Of a DNA stretch of 20,383 nt, positions 2,771 to 18,479 are shown one piece after another. Positions within the stretch are counted from its first letter, which is position 1. The number at the start of each line of letters is the position of its first letter. Both the position numbers and the translations under genes were made by a program. Location of the stretch: IMG/VR virus record IMGVR_UViG_3300005911_000020, positions 1 through 20,383 of that record; one strand, given 5' to 3'. The DNA is from a virus. Below the pieces are notes generated by a model, which ran no database searches, was not told the origin of the DNA, and worked only from the letters and a program-made list of their open reading frames with translations.

Positions 2771-3880
2771 TTAGTTACACCACATAGCGTTTTGAGGCTC
2801 TGGCTTCTCTATTTTAAATGTTTTCACAAACCCATCAGTTCCTACACCAGCATAGGCAAGTGCCACATAATAAATACCACCAGCTTCTTCAATCAAGTCC
2901 ATTGTGTTAAACCCAACAACAGCATCAGCAGTATCATGCTCAAGTGTATAGTGTTGTTTAATGTTGTACGTTTGTGGGCTAATTGATACTGCAGTGATGT
3001 GCTCTCCTGTTCCAACCTTATCATACGCTACAGCATAATAGTTTTCACCAAGTGAAACCATTGAAGATTCTGTGGAAATTGAATCTGATATTTTTATGGT
3101 ATTTTCCTTTGTAATTGCAAACGAGCCATCAATAGAGAAGACTGAAACTGTTCCAAAGTTACCTGTTCCACGATAAGAAACACACATTGTTGTTGAATTT
3201 ATAGCAACAAGTGAAGGATATACAGCTAATGCTGTATCATATTCAAGTGAATCTTCCTCTGTTAGCACATATGAACCATCAATCGTAAATGTTTTTATGA
3301 ATCCATGAGCTGCAGAATCAGCATAGGCAAGTCCATATGTTGTACTGTCTAGCTTTACCAAAGAGTTAATAGATGCAACAGAAAGTGCAGAGTGCACAAG
3401 AGCATCAACTTCTGTGATGGTTCCAAACGAACCATCGTGTGAGAAAGTTTTTATAACCCCTGTTGAGGCGGTTTTATACGCAACCATGAAATGAGTAGAG
3501 TCAATTTGCACAATAGAACTATCTCTAGCTTCTACTGTTTCGTGTTCAAGTACATCTACCTCAGTGATGTTATATGAACCATCAATAGAGAATGTCTTAA
3601 CAAACCCATCAAATGCTGTACCTGTATAAGCTAACCCAAAGTGAGTTGAATCTAGCTTAACCATTCTATTGTAACGAGCGTTTACCGTGTCATGTTCAAT
3701 AGAATCAATCAATGTAATGGTACCTTTATTTGCATCAATGCTGTATGTTGCAATAAATCCATCAAAAGAGACTCCTGAGTATGCAATGATAAAGTGAGTT
3801 GCATCAATAACAACCAAGCTAGCTTCTCTCCCTTGTCCTGTATCAAATTCTAATTCATCTATTTGTGTAATTCCAATCAT
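2771..3880 (-). CDS. Seven-repeat beta-propeller-like virion protein
   Basis: This 369-aa protein is built from seven imperfect repeats of about 50 residues. Each has the pattern: short acidic linker with E/D-x-D, L-E-H-D-T, then a strand ending in L-D-S-T-H-F, then a strand A-Y-x-G, then D-G-F-V-K-T-F-S-I-D-G-S. The repeats start near residues 1, 54, 104, 154, 205, 255 and 306. Seven four-strand-sized repeats fill the chain, which is what a closed seven-bladed propeller would need. No signal peptide or enzyme motif is seen. It lies directly after the fibre gene (10-bp gap), so it may be a receptor-binding or decoration component at the fibre. The repeat structure is seen in the sequence; the fold and role are inferred. 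Confidence 0.85.
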   Translation of the reverse strand: MIGITQIDELEFDTGQGREASLVVIDATHFIIAYSGVSFDGFIATYSIDANKGTITLIDSIEHDTVNARYNRMVKLDSTHFGLAYTGTAFDGFVKTFSIDGSYNITEVDVLEHETVEARDSSIVQIDSTHFMVAYKTASTGVIKTFSHDGSFGTITEVDALVHSALSVASINSLVKLDSTTYGLAYADSAAHGFIKTFTIDGSYVLTEEDSLEYDTALAVYPSLVAINSTTMCVSYRGTGNFGTVSVFSIDGSFAITKENTIKISDSISTESSMVSLGENYYAVAYDKVGTGEHITAVSISPQTYNIKQHYTLEHDTADAVVGFNTMDLIEEAGGIYYVALAYAGVGTDGFVKTFKIEKPEPQNAMWCN

Positions 3881-7838: not shown

Positions 7839-8954
7839 CTAGTCTACTGATAGGATTTCTACTCCTGCTGCTTCTCGGTTTTCAATAACTCCGAATAGGA
7901 TGTCTGCTACAACCAATACTCCTAGCCATTCTAGTTTGTATTCTGCTTGTAGACGTACTCCATTTGCGTCTTTTGCTCCTGGAAGTGCTGCTGTTGCAAA
8001 GTGAATTGCATCAGGGTTTCCAAAGAATCCGTGTAAATCTGTACCGTCACTAACAATGTTAGTTGTTGATAGAACTGGTCGTCCGTACAACATTCCAATC
8101 TGTCCTTTTAGAAGTGGATCAGCTCCATTTGTGTTTTGCACAAGTGAGAACTTATCAATTGCCATAAGGTCAGCCCAGATAGTCTTTGGATTAAGAATCC
8201 AAGCTGCATCATCTAGGTCTCCATCATTTGCTGTGTACTTGCTTACTGCGTCTAGCACGTTAGCATCTGACAAAGCTGTTCCTGTAGTTCCTGCAACTGC
8301 TGTAAAGCCTACGAATAGAGCTGTAATAGCTGAATCTAGTGCTTTTGCTGCTGTGTACGCTGCATTCTTCATGTAAGTTTCTTGCGTTTTGTACTGTTTC
8401 ATTACTTGTGCTGCTTCCTTATCTTCAATCATGAAGGCAACGTGTGAATGAGTAGCGATAGTTAGGTCTACTGAAGTTTGTGCGTTATCTGCAAGTACAA
8501 CTTGTGTCTGTGCCTGTTTGGCTGCGGCTGCAAGTTCTACAATAACTGGTGTGTGAATAATATCCCCTCCTGCAATTACGTCTTCTGAACGGTCTGTAAA
8601 GAAGTTAGCTGCTACTAATTTTGAACGGTAGAAGTCGTTGATTTTGTTTCCCCATACTTCTCCGATTGATGCTGCCAAGTCGGCTGCAACAAAGTGGTCT
8701 GTCTCTGTGTTACTACCTCTTTCAAGGCGGGAGTACCTCTTCGGGTTCTCCTCTCATAGTTTCCTATGAGGTCAGACTATACCTTCACTCTTTCGTTATA
8801 TGGCGAGCGTGTGTCTCGATGGTAGTCGTTGAGGGTTCTCTTTCGAGCTTCCCTGCTGATTGTCCGTTAGTCCCCACCTTTTCAGGCTTCGGCTCTTGGG
8901 AGTTTCCAGCATATACAAGATTTTAATTAGGCAAAGTCACTTACCTAATGCCAT
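7839..8954 (-). CDS. Major capsid protein (HK97-fold), interrupted by a group I intron
   Basis: The proposed coding sequence is join(8943..8954, 7839..8702) on the minus strand, 291 aa. Exon 1 is ATG-GCA-TTA-GGT (M-A-L-G). Exon 2 begins T-D-H-F-V-A-A-D-L-A-A-S-I-G-E-V-W. The long frame has no ATG at its 5' end: it only offers TTG at 8678 and is open up to a TGA inside the intron, so an unspliced reading would give a truncated or ill-started protein. The product resembles HK97-fold coat proteins, with an N-terminal helical stretch (VWGNKINDFYRSKLVAANFF), V-A-F-M-I-E-D-K-E-A-A near the middle, W-I-L-N-P-K-T-I-W-A-D-L, G-R-P-V-L-S-T-T-N-I and a C-terminal G-V-I-E-N-R-E-A-A. It follows the scaffold candidate and an HNH gene. 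The capsid call is strong; the exact 3' splice site is chosen by reading frame and the terminal G. Confidence 0.88.
8703..8942 (-). ncRNA. Group I self-splicing intron in the capsid gene (about 240 nt, no ORF)
   Basis: Read on the minus strand, P1 pairs exon ATTAGGT (8943-8949) with GCCTAAT (8926-8932), all seven positions, with the required U.G at the 5' splice site. P4 pairs TGCTG (8907-8911) with CAGCA (8854-8858). P7 pairs GACTA (8823-8827) with TAGTC (8775-8779), inside the conserved-looking R segment CAACGACTA and S segment GGTATAGTC. P3 (TCTTG/CGAGA) and P8 (CGCTC/GAGTG) can form with wobble pairs. P9 is a perfect CTCATAG-GAAA-CTATGAG hairpin (8753-8770). Further hairpins (GGAG/CTCC; GCCTT-GAAA-GAGGT) follow. 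The 3' end is placed after GAG at 8703 because it ends in G and keeps frame. It carries no protein gene. Confidence 0.85.
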
Positions 8955-8971
8955 ATATAATATTTGTTAAG

Positions 8972-9484
8972 TTAACGTACTTTAACAATTGCATTAGAAA
9001 TATTTAAATCATGTCTGTCATATTTGACGTGACATGGAACACATAGACAGGTGAAGTCATCAAGGTCTCTTTTATACTCCCTGCTTATGTTAGCCCAGTG
9101 AAAGTGACCTTTGTAAGGGTCAGCAAATCCACATATAGAGCACACACAAGGCTTCTTCCCTTTCCATTTAGCAACCCAATCATGGAGAGCAGAATACCCT
9201 ACATCATCACCTTTCCACTTAGAATTTTCTTTCCCCGTGTTATCTCCATCTTTAAAATGAGTACGACCAGTGTTATTGGTGTGTCCAATTCTGTCAGAAG
9301 ACATTTGAGCTTTAGTTTCTTCTGTGTGTTTTTTACCCTTACGTGGGGACCATCCCTTTGAATACTTCTCAAGAAGCCTCTTAGAGTGAGCTGTATTGCT
9401 GCCCGTCTTTATTCCTTTGTTCCAAGCAACCTGGACGCCAGTTTTACCCTTGTTCCAAGGAACTTGTCCTTTCTTTCCTGCCAT
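8972..9484 (-). CDS. Free-standing HNH homing endonuclease with NUMOD3-like repeats
   Basis: This 170-aa protein opens with repeated P-W-N-K-G-K-T / A-W-N-K-G-I-K-T motifs and S-P-R-K-G-K-K-H-T-E-E-T-K (residues about 9-60), which match NUMOD3-type DNA-binding motifs of homing endonucleases. The C-terminal nuclease has C115-x2-C118 and C148-x2-C151 as a likely zinc site, and H129-W-A-N132 and H152 as likely HNH residues, in the common phage form H-F-H-W-A-N-I-S-R-E-Y-K-R-D. The gene is inserted between the scaffold and capsid genes. It is outside the adjacent group I intron but ends only 17 bases before the capsid ATG. It is flanked by long imperfect inverted repeats, one reaching into its own 3' coding end. 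Its likely target is the intron-less capsid gene or its surroundings (inference). Confidence 0.92.
   Translation of the reverse strand: MAGKKGQVPWNKGKTGVQVAWNKGIKTGSNTAHSKRLLEKYSKGWSPRKGKKHTEETKAQMSSDRIGHTNNTGRTHFKDGDNTGKENSKWKGDDVGYSALHDWVAKWKGKKPCVCSICGFADPYKGHFHWANISREYKRDLDDFTCLCVPCHVKYDRHDLNISNAIVKVR
8977..9010 (+). repeat. Left copy of imperfect inverted repeat flanking the HNH gene
   Basis: On the plus strand this reads GTACTTTAACAATTGCATTA and continues through GAAATATTTAAATC. It matches the minus strand of 9505-9537 with about four mismatches and one indel; the core ACAATTGCATTAG is identical. It lies within the last codons of the HNH gene, so it is both coding and repeat. Confidence 0.75.
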
Positions 9485-9504: not shown

Positions 9505-9537
9505 GATTAAATATACCTAATGCAATTGTCAATGTAC
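9505..9537 (-). repeat. Right copy of imperfect inverted repeat flanking the HNH gene
   Basis: On the minus strand this reads GTACATTGACAATTGCATTA and continues GGTATATTTAATC. Together with 8977-9010 it brackets the HNH gene with inward-facing ends. It also contains GCATTAGGTA (9514-9523), identical to the capsid exon 1 / intron junction sequence at 8942-8951. It includes a TTGACA hexamer, but I could not fit a convincing -10 to it. Confidence 0.75.
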
Positions 9538-9592
9538 TTTCTCAACAAATTGTTAATCGTTTGAATAATTAACTATCAGGCGTTGAAACTAC

Positions 9593-15552: not shown

Positions 15553-16107
15553 CTACTCCTTTATCACCTTATACCCCTCACTCTTCAACAACTCCATTGC
15601 TTCTTCCATTTTATTGTCTTTTGCTTCTGTATCTATTCCTGTAATTTCTTCAAAGATAGTAGATGAGAAGTTAGGTAACTTTAGAAAGTCATCATGTCGT
15701 TCTGGGTGTTCTTTCCACCATATTTGACATGCTTCTTTGAAATCTAAAGTTTTAAGATAACCACCCATCTGTTTTATTTCTGGTGTTAGTTCATCTTCTG
15801 GTACATCTTTTTCTTCTATCCACTTGTTTAGTGGGATATCGGCATAGATATTGTATTTATTTTCAAATTCTTCATGTGTCATGTCTACCCATTGATTAAA
15901 TATTTGGATTTTATCTGGTGAACCTGTATTGAAGTAACCACTATTCCTGTGACCACTATTCCAGTAACCACTATTCCTGTGACCACTATTCCAGTAACCA
16001 CTATTCCAGTCACCACTATTCCTGTGACCACTATTCCTGTGACCACTATTCCAGTAACCACTATTACTGTTACCACTATTGCCTTCTCCTGTGTTGTTTT
16101 TGTTCAT
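15553..16107 (-). CDS. NSGxx pentapeptide-repeat phage protein
   Basis: This is a 184-aa protein. Residues 10-59 are ten pentapeptides N-S-G-x-x (second part Y-W, H-R, D-W, N-S or Y-F), ending N-T-G. This pattern (PF01469-like) is expected to form a beta-helix or beta-solenoid. The remaining 120 residues hold I-F-N-Q-W-V-D-M-T, M-G-G-Y-L-K-T-L-D-F-K-E-A-C and L-P-N-F-S-S-T-I-F-E-E-I-T-G-I. I recognise this as a recurring phage domain paired with such repeats, with no assigned function. It sits directly before the other repeat-bearing protein. Alternative frames through the repeat also stay open but are shadows. Confidence 0.85.
   Translation of the reverse strand: MNKNNTGEGNSGNSNSGYWNSGHRNSGHRNSGDWNSGYWNSGHRNSGYWNSGHRNSGYFNTGSPDKIQIFNQWVDMTHEEFENKYNIYADIPLNKWIEEKDVPEDELTPEIKQMGGYLKTLDFKEACQIWWKEHPERHDDFLKLPNFSSTIFEEITGIDTEAKDNKMEEAMELLKSEGYKVIKE
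15931..16080 (-). repeat. Ten tandem 15-bp repeats (NSGxx)
   Basis: Ten 15-bp units vary mainly at the two variable codons (TACTGG, CACAGG, GACTGG). Y-W and H-R units alternate, giving a 30-bp higher-order period. High identity between units suggests recent expansion or ongoing slippage. Confidence 0.9.
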
Positions 16108-16930: not shown

Positions 16931-16939
16931 ATTATAGCA
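16931..16939 (-). promoter_or_regulatory. Extended -10 promoter (TGnTATAAT)
   Basis: The minus strand reads TGCTATAATTATAG, seven bases before the nuclease ATG at 16923. It overlaps the stop codon of the HNH gene. The 12-bp palindrome CTATAATTATAG is shared with 17993-18004. Confidence 0.5.
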
Positions 16940-17273
16940 AGTTAAGCACCTCTTGTACATCATCATCTATGTACTTTAGGAAGTCTTTATCCACTTGTTT
17001 AACCTCGTAATAACTGTTAGTTACTTGGTTGAATATCAACTTTAGTAGCTCCTGTTGGAACTCTTTACTTTGTCTACTTCCAGTATTATGTGCATCAGCT
17101 TCTTTGTGGCAGACAACACATAAACAAATGGCGTTATACATGCTAGATGTGTGTGGCATACGCCGACTGTAGTTGTGGTGGAAACTACAACCTTGATTGC
17201 TCCCACACTTTGCACAGTATGGATGTGACTGCCATATTAGTTGTATATCGTGTTTGTTGAAGTCGTTAGCCAT
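16932..17273 (-). CDS. HNH endonuclease
   Basis: This 113-aa protein has C20-x2-C23, F-H32-H33-N-Y-S-R-R, N47 and C52-x2-C55-H56, the standard zinc-supported HNH arrangement. A helical C-terminus (residues 68-113, with Y-Y-E-V-K-Q-V-D-K-D-F) follows. It lacks the NUMOD-type motifs of the HNH at 8972. It could be a recombination or packaging-associated nuclease, or a stand-alone homing enzyme. A long hairpin element lies immediately upstream. Confidence 0.85.
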   Translation of the reverse strand: MANDFNKHDIQLIWQSHPYCAKCGSNQGCSFHHNYSRRMPHTSSMYNAICLCVVCHKEADAHNTGSRQSKEFQQELLKLIFNQVTNSYYEVKQVDKDFLKYIDDDVQEVLNLL

Positions 17274-18003: not shown

Positions 18004-18030
18004 GCTAGTTAGAAGAATATGTCGAGTGAG

Positions 18031-18039
18031 TTATCCACA
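18031..18039 (+). other. DnaA box (TTATCCACA)
   Basis: A perfect match to the consensus DnaA box lies in the 157-bp non-coding stretch 17963-18119, the clearest intergenic region of the early module, next to a promoter element. A single box is weak evidence for an origin. The stretch otherwise holds a short hairpin at 18091-18110. Confidence 0.45.
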
Positions 18040-18090
18040 GGCAATGTAGAGGGTAGGAGGAGTAAATAACAGTAAACTAGCCCCACCCTC

Positions 18091-18110
18091 AACACTACCA
18101 ATGTAGTGCT
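18091..18110 (-). terminator. Short stem-loop after the 119-aa gene
   Basis: On the minus strand AGCACTAC-ATTG-GTAGTGTT forms an 8-bp stem about ten bases after the stop codon. It is followed by a G-rich run rather than a U-tract, so terminator function is doubtful. Confidence 0.3.
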
Positions 18111-18119
18111 ACAAATCTT

Positions 18120-18479
18120 TTAATTTAAAATCTCAATTTCAGTTACAACTGCAGTATCATATTGGTCACAATTACTAACTCCTCTAACGATCCAATCAAT
18201 ATAAGTTAGTTTTACTTTTTTACTATTACTAACTGCATTTTCAATATTTGTAATCAACTCCTTGTCTTCCTTTAAGATACAGTATTTATCTTCTTGGGAG
18301 CTTTCAAGTTCTGTTTTTATATAGAGGCTTGGTGTCTTCCATATAATTCCATAAGATTCAACTGCAGTTAAATATCCAACATGTTCCCCCTTACCTGTTT
18401 CATAGTGAACACCCTTTACAATCAATCCGTATGCAAAAATCATTGCTATAAAAACTACTACTGCTAAAAAAAGTTTCAT
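18120..18479 (-). CDS. N-terminally anchored membrane/secreted protein (119 aa)
   Basis: Residues 1-23 (M-K-L-F-L-A-V-V-V-F-I-A-M-I-F-A-Y-G-L-I-V) form a hydrophobic signal anchor without an obvious cleavage or lipobox motif. The rest is a soluble domain with G-E-H-V-G-Y-L-T-A-V-E, I-I-W-K-T-P-S-L-Y-I-K-T-E, two Cys (C67, C103) that could pair outside the cytoplasm, and V-T-E-I-E-I-L-N at the end. Small membrane proteins of this shape are common in phage early regions; the function is unknown. It precedes the DnaA-box intergenic region. Confidence 0.75.
   Translation of the reverse strand: MKLFLAVVVFIAMIFAYGLIVKGVHYETGKGEHVGYLTAVESYGIIWKTPSLYIKTELESSQEDKYCILKEDKELITNIENAVSNSKKVKLTYIDWIVRGVSNCDQYDTAVVTEIEILN

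Follow-up and report, generated by a model that had tools for sequence, protein, structure and literature searches.

The major capsid gene of an uncultured virus, carried on a contig of 20,383 bases that was analysed as a whole (hereafter the window), is almost certainly interrupted after its fourth codon by a group I intron whose splice sites bound 8942..8703. We consider it very probable that this is an old mobile intron of this capsid site, without an endonuclease of its own and possibly mobilised in trans by the HNH-type gene that adjoins it. The new observation is that a single insertion site occurs in four states: empty, occupied by the HNH gene only, occupied by the HNH gene and an ORF-less intron, or occupied by a LAGLIDADG intron only.

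Results

A group I intron splits the major capsid gene

The major capsid gene lies on the minus strand and was recognized by a profile match to PHROG 267 (major head protein, E 3e-19). It is composed of the following parts.

8943..8954, minus strand: exon 1 of the major capsid gene, ATGGCATTAGGT (ATG GCA TTA GGT, M-A-L-G); N-terminus uninterrupted in L003, L004, L005 and L038; last 7 nt in P1
8703..8942, minus strand: ORF-less group I intron of 240 nt, 5' AAGTGACTTT ... ACACAGAG 3', with terminal G at 8703; assigned from RF00028, fold, helices and the junction in intron-less alleles
7839..8702, minus strand: exon 2 of the major capsid gene, T-D-H-F to the stop codon; assigned from PHROG 267 and relatives

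A sequence-only reading of this DNA had placed an ORF-less group I intron after capsid codon four, within a segment (8703-8954) that corresponds to exon 1 plus the intron proper. It had also stated that the capsid frame has no usable start and that a coding-only annotation would call a false TTG start. Our results agree on each count, as no ATG precedes exon 2 in the capsid frame and the ORF finder starts the capsid gene at TTG 8678. Read unspliced from the capsid ATG, the sequence encodes MALGK followed by a stop, i.e. five residues. When the exons were joined in silico, the product was an intact 291-aa capsid protein starting MALGTDHFVAADLA. The predicted spliced junction joins GGCATTAGGT to ACAGACCACTTTG, exon 2 opening with ACAGACC, and the predicted N-terminal peptide is ALGTDHFVAADLAASIGEVWGNK.

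The Infernal search that the same reading had proposed as a check on the minus strand returned an Rfam RF00028 match at 8969..8753 that scored above the gathering score (52.7 bits vs 50, E 4.9e-11). Furthermore, the intron region was more stably folded than its dinucleotide shuffles (z -4.2), none of 200 shuffles being as stable. Because differences in ORF and P9 led MAFFT to misalign P3 and P7 among the introns, helices were placed by hand, as follows.

8926..8949, minus strand: P1, AUUAGGU (8949-8943, exon 1) paired with the guide GCCUAAU (8932-8926), with a U.G pair at the 5' splice site; L077 and L078 have the same guide
8814..8920, minus strand: P3, 8920-8916 with 8818-8814 (UCUUG/CGAGA; UUCUG/CAGAA in L077 and L078)
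8854..8911, minus strand: P4 (8911-8907 with 8858-8854) around P5 (8901-8898 with 8875-8872)
8833..8853, minus strand: P6 (8853-8851 with 8835-8833) and P6a (8847-8845 with 8840-8838, GAAA loop)
8775..8827, minus strand: P7 (8827-8823 with 8779-8775, GACUA/UAGUC, identical in L077 and L078), with P8 (8809-8805 with 8790-8786) between its strands
8753..8770, minus strand: P9, 8770-8764 with 8759-8753, GAAA loop
8716..8751, minus strand: P9.1 (8751-8748 with 8733-8730) and P9.2 (8727-8724 with 8719-8716), both missing from L077 and L078

Every listed helix pair in the window intron is a standard pair, and the intron combines a P3-P9 core containing a conserved P7 with the P1 U.G pair at the 5' splice site and a terminal G. 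The helices named beforehand (P1 with its U.G pair, P4, P7, and P9 with its GAAA loop) were all found, and P3, P5, P6/P6a, P8, P9.1 and P9.2 could be placed in addition. There was no intron ORF among sense-strand ORFs of at least 60 aa, and P6a is closed by its GAAA loop. This anatomy and the joined frame, both observed directly, suggest that the intron would remove itself from the capsid mRNA. P1 would pair the AUUAGGU end of exon 1 with GCCUAAU, so that the U of the U.G pair is the last base before the 5' splice site; the 3' splice site would be marked by the terminal G (8703), and the exons would join as M-A-L-G/T-D-H-F.

The same exon-intron junction was found in three further contigs from other samples. 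Conversely, the insertion is exactly missing, with the exons in frame, in L003, L004, L005 and L038. The capsids of the first three are 89-90% identical to that of the window, and their junction reads ATGGCATTAGGA-ACAGACCA, M-A-L-G-T-D-H-F being unbroken. Alignment of exon 2 with these intron-less homologues joined M-A-L-G straight to T-D-H-F, the normal N-terminus that the sequence-only reading had expected from splicing. In these three relatives the preceding gene runs directly into the capsid gene, and the HNH gene and the intron are both missing. The last base of exon 1 is A in these empty alleles and T in the intron-bearing allele of the window; since the U.G pair requires U, the recipient would already have carried GGT, or the base would have been co-converted on arrival. 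The empty junctions read GGA|ACA in L003 and GGT|ACA in L038.

A homologous intron with a LAGLIDADG ORF occupies the same site in distant relatives

Two relatives whose capsids are about 40% identical to that of the window, L077 and L078 (IMG/VR 3300006805_001815 and 3300003666_000006), carry a 796-nt insertion at the identical capsid site, where ATGGGATTAGGT is followed by the insertion GAAATAATTGCCTAATTAAAATTCTGTATATGCTGGAA ... AATACAAACG and then by ACAAACC. Both yielded intact capsids when spliced in silico. This insertion shares its site and guide sequence with the window intron and has a homologous core. It differs in its length, in having a LAGLIDADG_3 ORF across the P6a loop, the frame of which overlaps core helices on both sides, in lacking P9.1 and P9.2, and in having no upstream HNH gene. 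Between the two introns, pairing was conserved despite changes to both partners in P3 (two pairs), P6 (one pair) and P9 (three of seven pairs); only two independent lineages of the intron underlie this covariation.

The introns of L077, L078, L097 and L099 escaped an Rfam search even with the threshold relaxed to E 0.5. As Rfam misses these ORF-bearing introns, the evidence for the L077 and L078 introns consists of homology and pairing. A stricter intron-core pattern had zero matches; a looser pattern brought up five contigs, none of them new (L077, L078 and three of the window species). The window intron and the L077/L078 insertion are homologous members of one family that is specific for this capsid site; in its other known members, the P6a loop holds a LAGLIDADG ORF. 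Because these known relatives carry an endonuclease, the window intron has probably lost one, a direction drawn from only two relatives and possibly the reverse.

Capsid genes are interrupted at four sites

A profile search yielded 80 capsid loci, 65 of which are distinct. Seven of these 65 distinct relatives have interrupted capsids, at four sites. In addition to its insertion after codon four, L078 has a second one of 268 nt (2233-2500) between the P and E of IPEIW. In L090, L097 and L099, the interruption lies near residue 74, after ..VTL; that of L090 has an RF00028 match of 69.3 bits, with the intron core at 2231-2460, and those of L097 and L099 have an HNH gene inside. L089 bears a 700-nt insertion (3131-3830) with a LAGLIDADG-like ORF after LYG. 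Apart from those of the window and L090, the interruptions are called group I by their features and homology only. An apparent interruption at residue 20 of L096 was dropped, as no intron could be placed there.

Group I introns were also seen outside capsid genes. In a further relative, L161:2557-3490 has a strong intron core of 91.5 bits followed directly by a NUMOD3/HNH gene, in a non-capsid gene that may be a structural gene; its NUMOD3/HNH gene is distantly related to the HNH gene of the window. L024:3120-3323 and L025:1947-2150 are group I introns situated among densely packed phage tRNA genes, and a NUMOD3-type ORF lies several hundred bases from them. Searches with the capsid gave zero matches in cultured phage genomes and zero in bacterial genomes, and a terminase search of bacterial genomes gave one match only, at 35%, on a Clostridiales MAG contig.

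An HNH-type gene flanked by an inverted repeat adjoins the capsid gene

Directly upstream of the interrupted capsid gene, we observed a putative endonuclease gene and an inverted repeat around it.

8972..9484, minus strand: free-standing putative homing endonuclease gene of NUMOD3/HNH type (170 aa), identified by NUMOD3 and PHROG 655; its stop codon lies 17 nt ahead of the capsid ATG
9507..9540, no strand: upstream arm of the inverted repeat, in which ATTGCATTAGGTA (9526-9514) nearly copies the end of exon 1 with its splice site, ATGGCATTAGGTA
8974..9007, no strand: downstream arm of the inverted repeat, within the 3' end of the HNH gene

The end of the HNH gene is 29 nt from the intron insertion point. 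Its protein has a NUMOD3 motif over the Pfam cut-off and weak PHROG matches, including one to PHROG 655 (homing endonuclease, E 1.9e-4); none of the Pfam HNH models reached its threshold. PHROG 8446 (HNH endonuclease) was matched by 5 of the 8 proteins aligned, and the C-terminal CxxC...CxxCH block of the window protein also occurs in phage HNH-type proteins. The AlphaFold model was poor (mean pLDDT 59) and too uncertain for use; when this poor model was compared with solved structures, the best matches were HNH nucleases, none of them significant. Another short gene for an HNH-type endonuclease (PHROG 144) is located at 16932-17273, in the early-side gene block of the window.

L038, another phage with a different terminase, has a 71% identical HNH gene in the same place, and despite this its capsid gene is uninterrupted (ATGGCCTTAGGT-ACAGACCAC). 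Therefore, the HNH gene can hold this place alone, and the two elements are not obligate partners.

The arms of the inverted repeat (9540..9507 vs 9007..8974) are 34 nt long and 85% complementary. The repeat scored far over shuffles in both the window and L038, and no comparable repeat was found around nine other HNH-type genes tested. Furthermore, the upstream arm contains a 9-nt exact match to exon 1, which 7 of 1000 shuffles also yielded. In phage T4, the operator sites ahead of intron endonuclease genes align with the homing sites (PMC2988022). By analogy, a natural reading of the upstream arm is that it may be an operator or a target relic; for the inverted repeat as a whole, an operator, an RNA stem or a target relic may be considered.

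Pairing of the capsid start codon

In predicted folds, the probability that the capsid start codon is unpaired was 0.04-0.08 in the unspliced RNA vs 0.36-0.61 in the joined one, as computed by a program that cannot model the P3/P7 crossing. A segment of the P8 loop is complementary to the start region.

8797..8804, minus strand: P8-loop complement GCCAUAUA, which could pair with UAUAUGGC (8957-8950, start codon region of the capsid gene); speculative

Among 1000 shuffled introns, 4 matched equally well; in L077 and L078, the P8 loop is short and has no such complement to the start codon. Capsid translation gated by splicing is a guess from these models, and stays one because the program cannot model the P3/P7 crossing and because L077 and L078 lack the complement.

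Other features of the window

Of the 25 gene starts listed for the window, almost none has a recognizable Shine-Dalgarno sequence and most have an AT-rich leader like AATAATATG, which may hint at the host group. A pentapeptide-like repeat protein (NSGYWNSGHRNSG..., Pfam Pentapeptide_2) is encoded at 15553-16107. A long imperfect minus-strand hairpin at 18027-18112, perhaps a terminator, follows closely on the ORF at 18120-18479; its weak mir-3129 score (25.7 bits, well under the family cut-off) surely reflects shape alone.

Mobility of the intron and rival explanations

An ORF-less intron beside a free-standing endonuclease gene is a published arrangement, known from collaborative (or trans) homing (PMC3984707, PMC10448857, PMC2988022). 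As the window intron has no endonuclease, its spread would depend on the adjoining HNH enzyme. This putative HNH-type enzyme would probably cut empty capsid genes at or near the insertion site, and repair would then copy exon 1 and the intron along with the HNH gene. Support comes from the position of the HNH gene directly upstream, from its absence together with the intron in the three empty relatives, and from the near-copy of the exon 1 splice-site sequence ahead of it. We give the homing step by the HNH gene an even chance of being correct.

The main rival is turnover of endonucleases without a partnership, for which a reasonable, if tentative, case can be made. The LAGLIDADG gene would have been lost after fixation, leaving the intron as a passive remnant, and the HNH gene would be an independent selfish neighbour that cuts elsewhere or not at all. 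This is consistent with the LAGLIDADG ORF carried at the same site by the only other introns of the family and with the HNH gene of L038 beside an uninterrupted capsid gene, and such a turnover has been proposed for ICP1 (PMC10448857). However, no more than 29 nt separate the intron from the HNH gene, and ahead of the latter lies a sequence that nearly copies the insertion site. Turnover is moreover compatible with an HNH enzyme that now mobilises the intron, and the two ORF-bearing relatives leave the direction, ORF loss or gain, unfixed.

An elaborate form of collaborative homing appears unlikely to us, namely that the intron switched partners. After loss of the LAGLIDADG gene, the HNH enzyme would recognize GCATTAGGT both at the capsid site, for cutting, and before its own gene, for self-regulation, and the start codon would be locked by an extended P1 and the P8-loop complement such that capsid translation waits for splicing.

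We regard as very improbable that the HNH gene is itself intron-borne, with the upstream copy of GCATTAGGT (9522-9514) acting as the 5' splice site and the HNH gene spliced out in a giant P1 loop. The upstream copy does contain AUUAGGU, which can pair with the same guide, and an in-frame TTG lies just ahead of it. Yet it has no ATG, whereas all intron-less relatives have an ATG directly before GCNTTAGG, as the downstream copy does, and L038 keeps the upstream copy without any intron. Finally, it is scarcely credible that there is no intron and that the capsid starts at TTG 8678, as the coding-only ORF call has it, behind a regulatory leader or an assembly fault, given the RF00028 group I match, the recurrence of the junction in three contigs from other samples, and the conserved N-terminus MALGTDHFVAADLA, which would be lost yet is kept by relatives.

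Discussion

Phage capsid-gene introns and collaborative homing are both already known. In mycobacteriophage LittleE (Cluster J), the major capsid gene contains an intron whose splicing was proven by RT-PCR and N-terminal sequencing (PMC3706429), and the lactococcal phage Tuc2009 is, as cited in that article, a further precedent. Like the window, where splicing is predicted from sequence, LittleE has a self-splicing type intron in its major capsid gene, a U that ends exon 1, a G that ends the intron, and empty alleles in close relatives. The LittleE intron differs in being 819 bp long, carrying an opposite-strand LAGLIDADG-like gene and lying further into the gene, whereas that of the window has 240 nt, no ORF and a position 12 nt after the start codon. 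These precedents leave the interpretation of the sequence-only reading intact and remove its emphasis on an unusual capsid intron (PMC3706429). That reading had correctly recognized the intron and had overlooked three things: the HNH-type gene next to it, the LAGLIDADG intron at the same site in distant relatives, and the further sites at which capsid genes carry introns.

Collaborative homing loci include psbA of cyanophage S-PM2 with F-CphI, the DNA polymerase introns of T7-like phages, ICP1 terL with a T5orf172 endonuclease, and T4 mobE with the nrdB intron (PMC3984707, PMC10448857, PMC6083498, PMC2988022). They share with the window an ORF-less group I intron and a free-standing endonuclease gene adjoining the interrupted gene. 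For some of them cleavage of the insertion site has been demonstrated, whereas for the window it is a prediction. In contrast to these loci, the host gene in the window is that of the major capsid protein, and an ORF-bearing form of the intron is found at the identical site in other phages.

For annotators, these results mean that gene callers miss short first exons such as the 12-nt exon 1. The four-state site bears on how intron-endonuclease pairs arise, a question raised in PMC10448857, and its four states make the order of events testable. The capsid insertion site thus records the gain and swapping of endonucleases by such elements.
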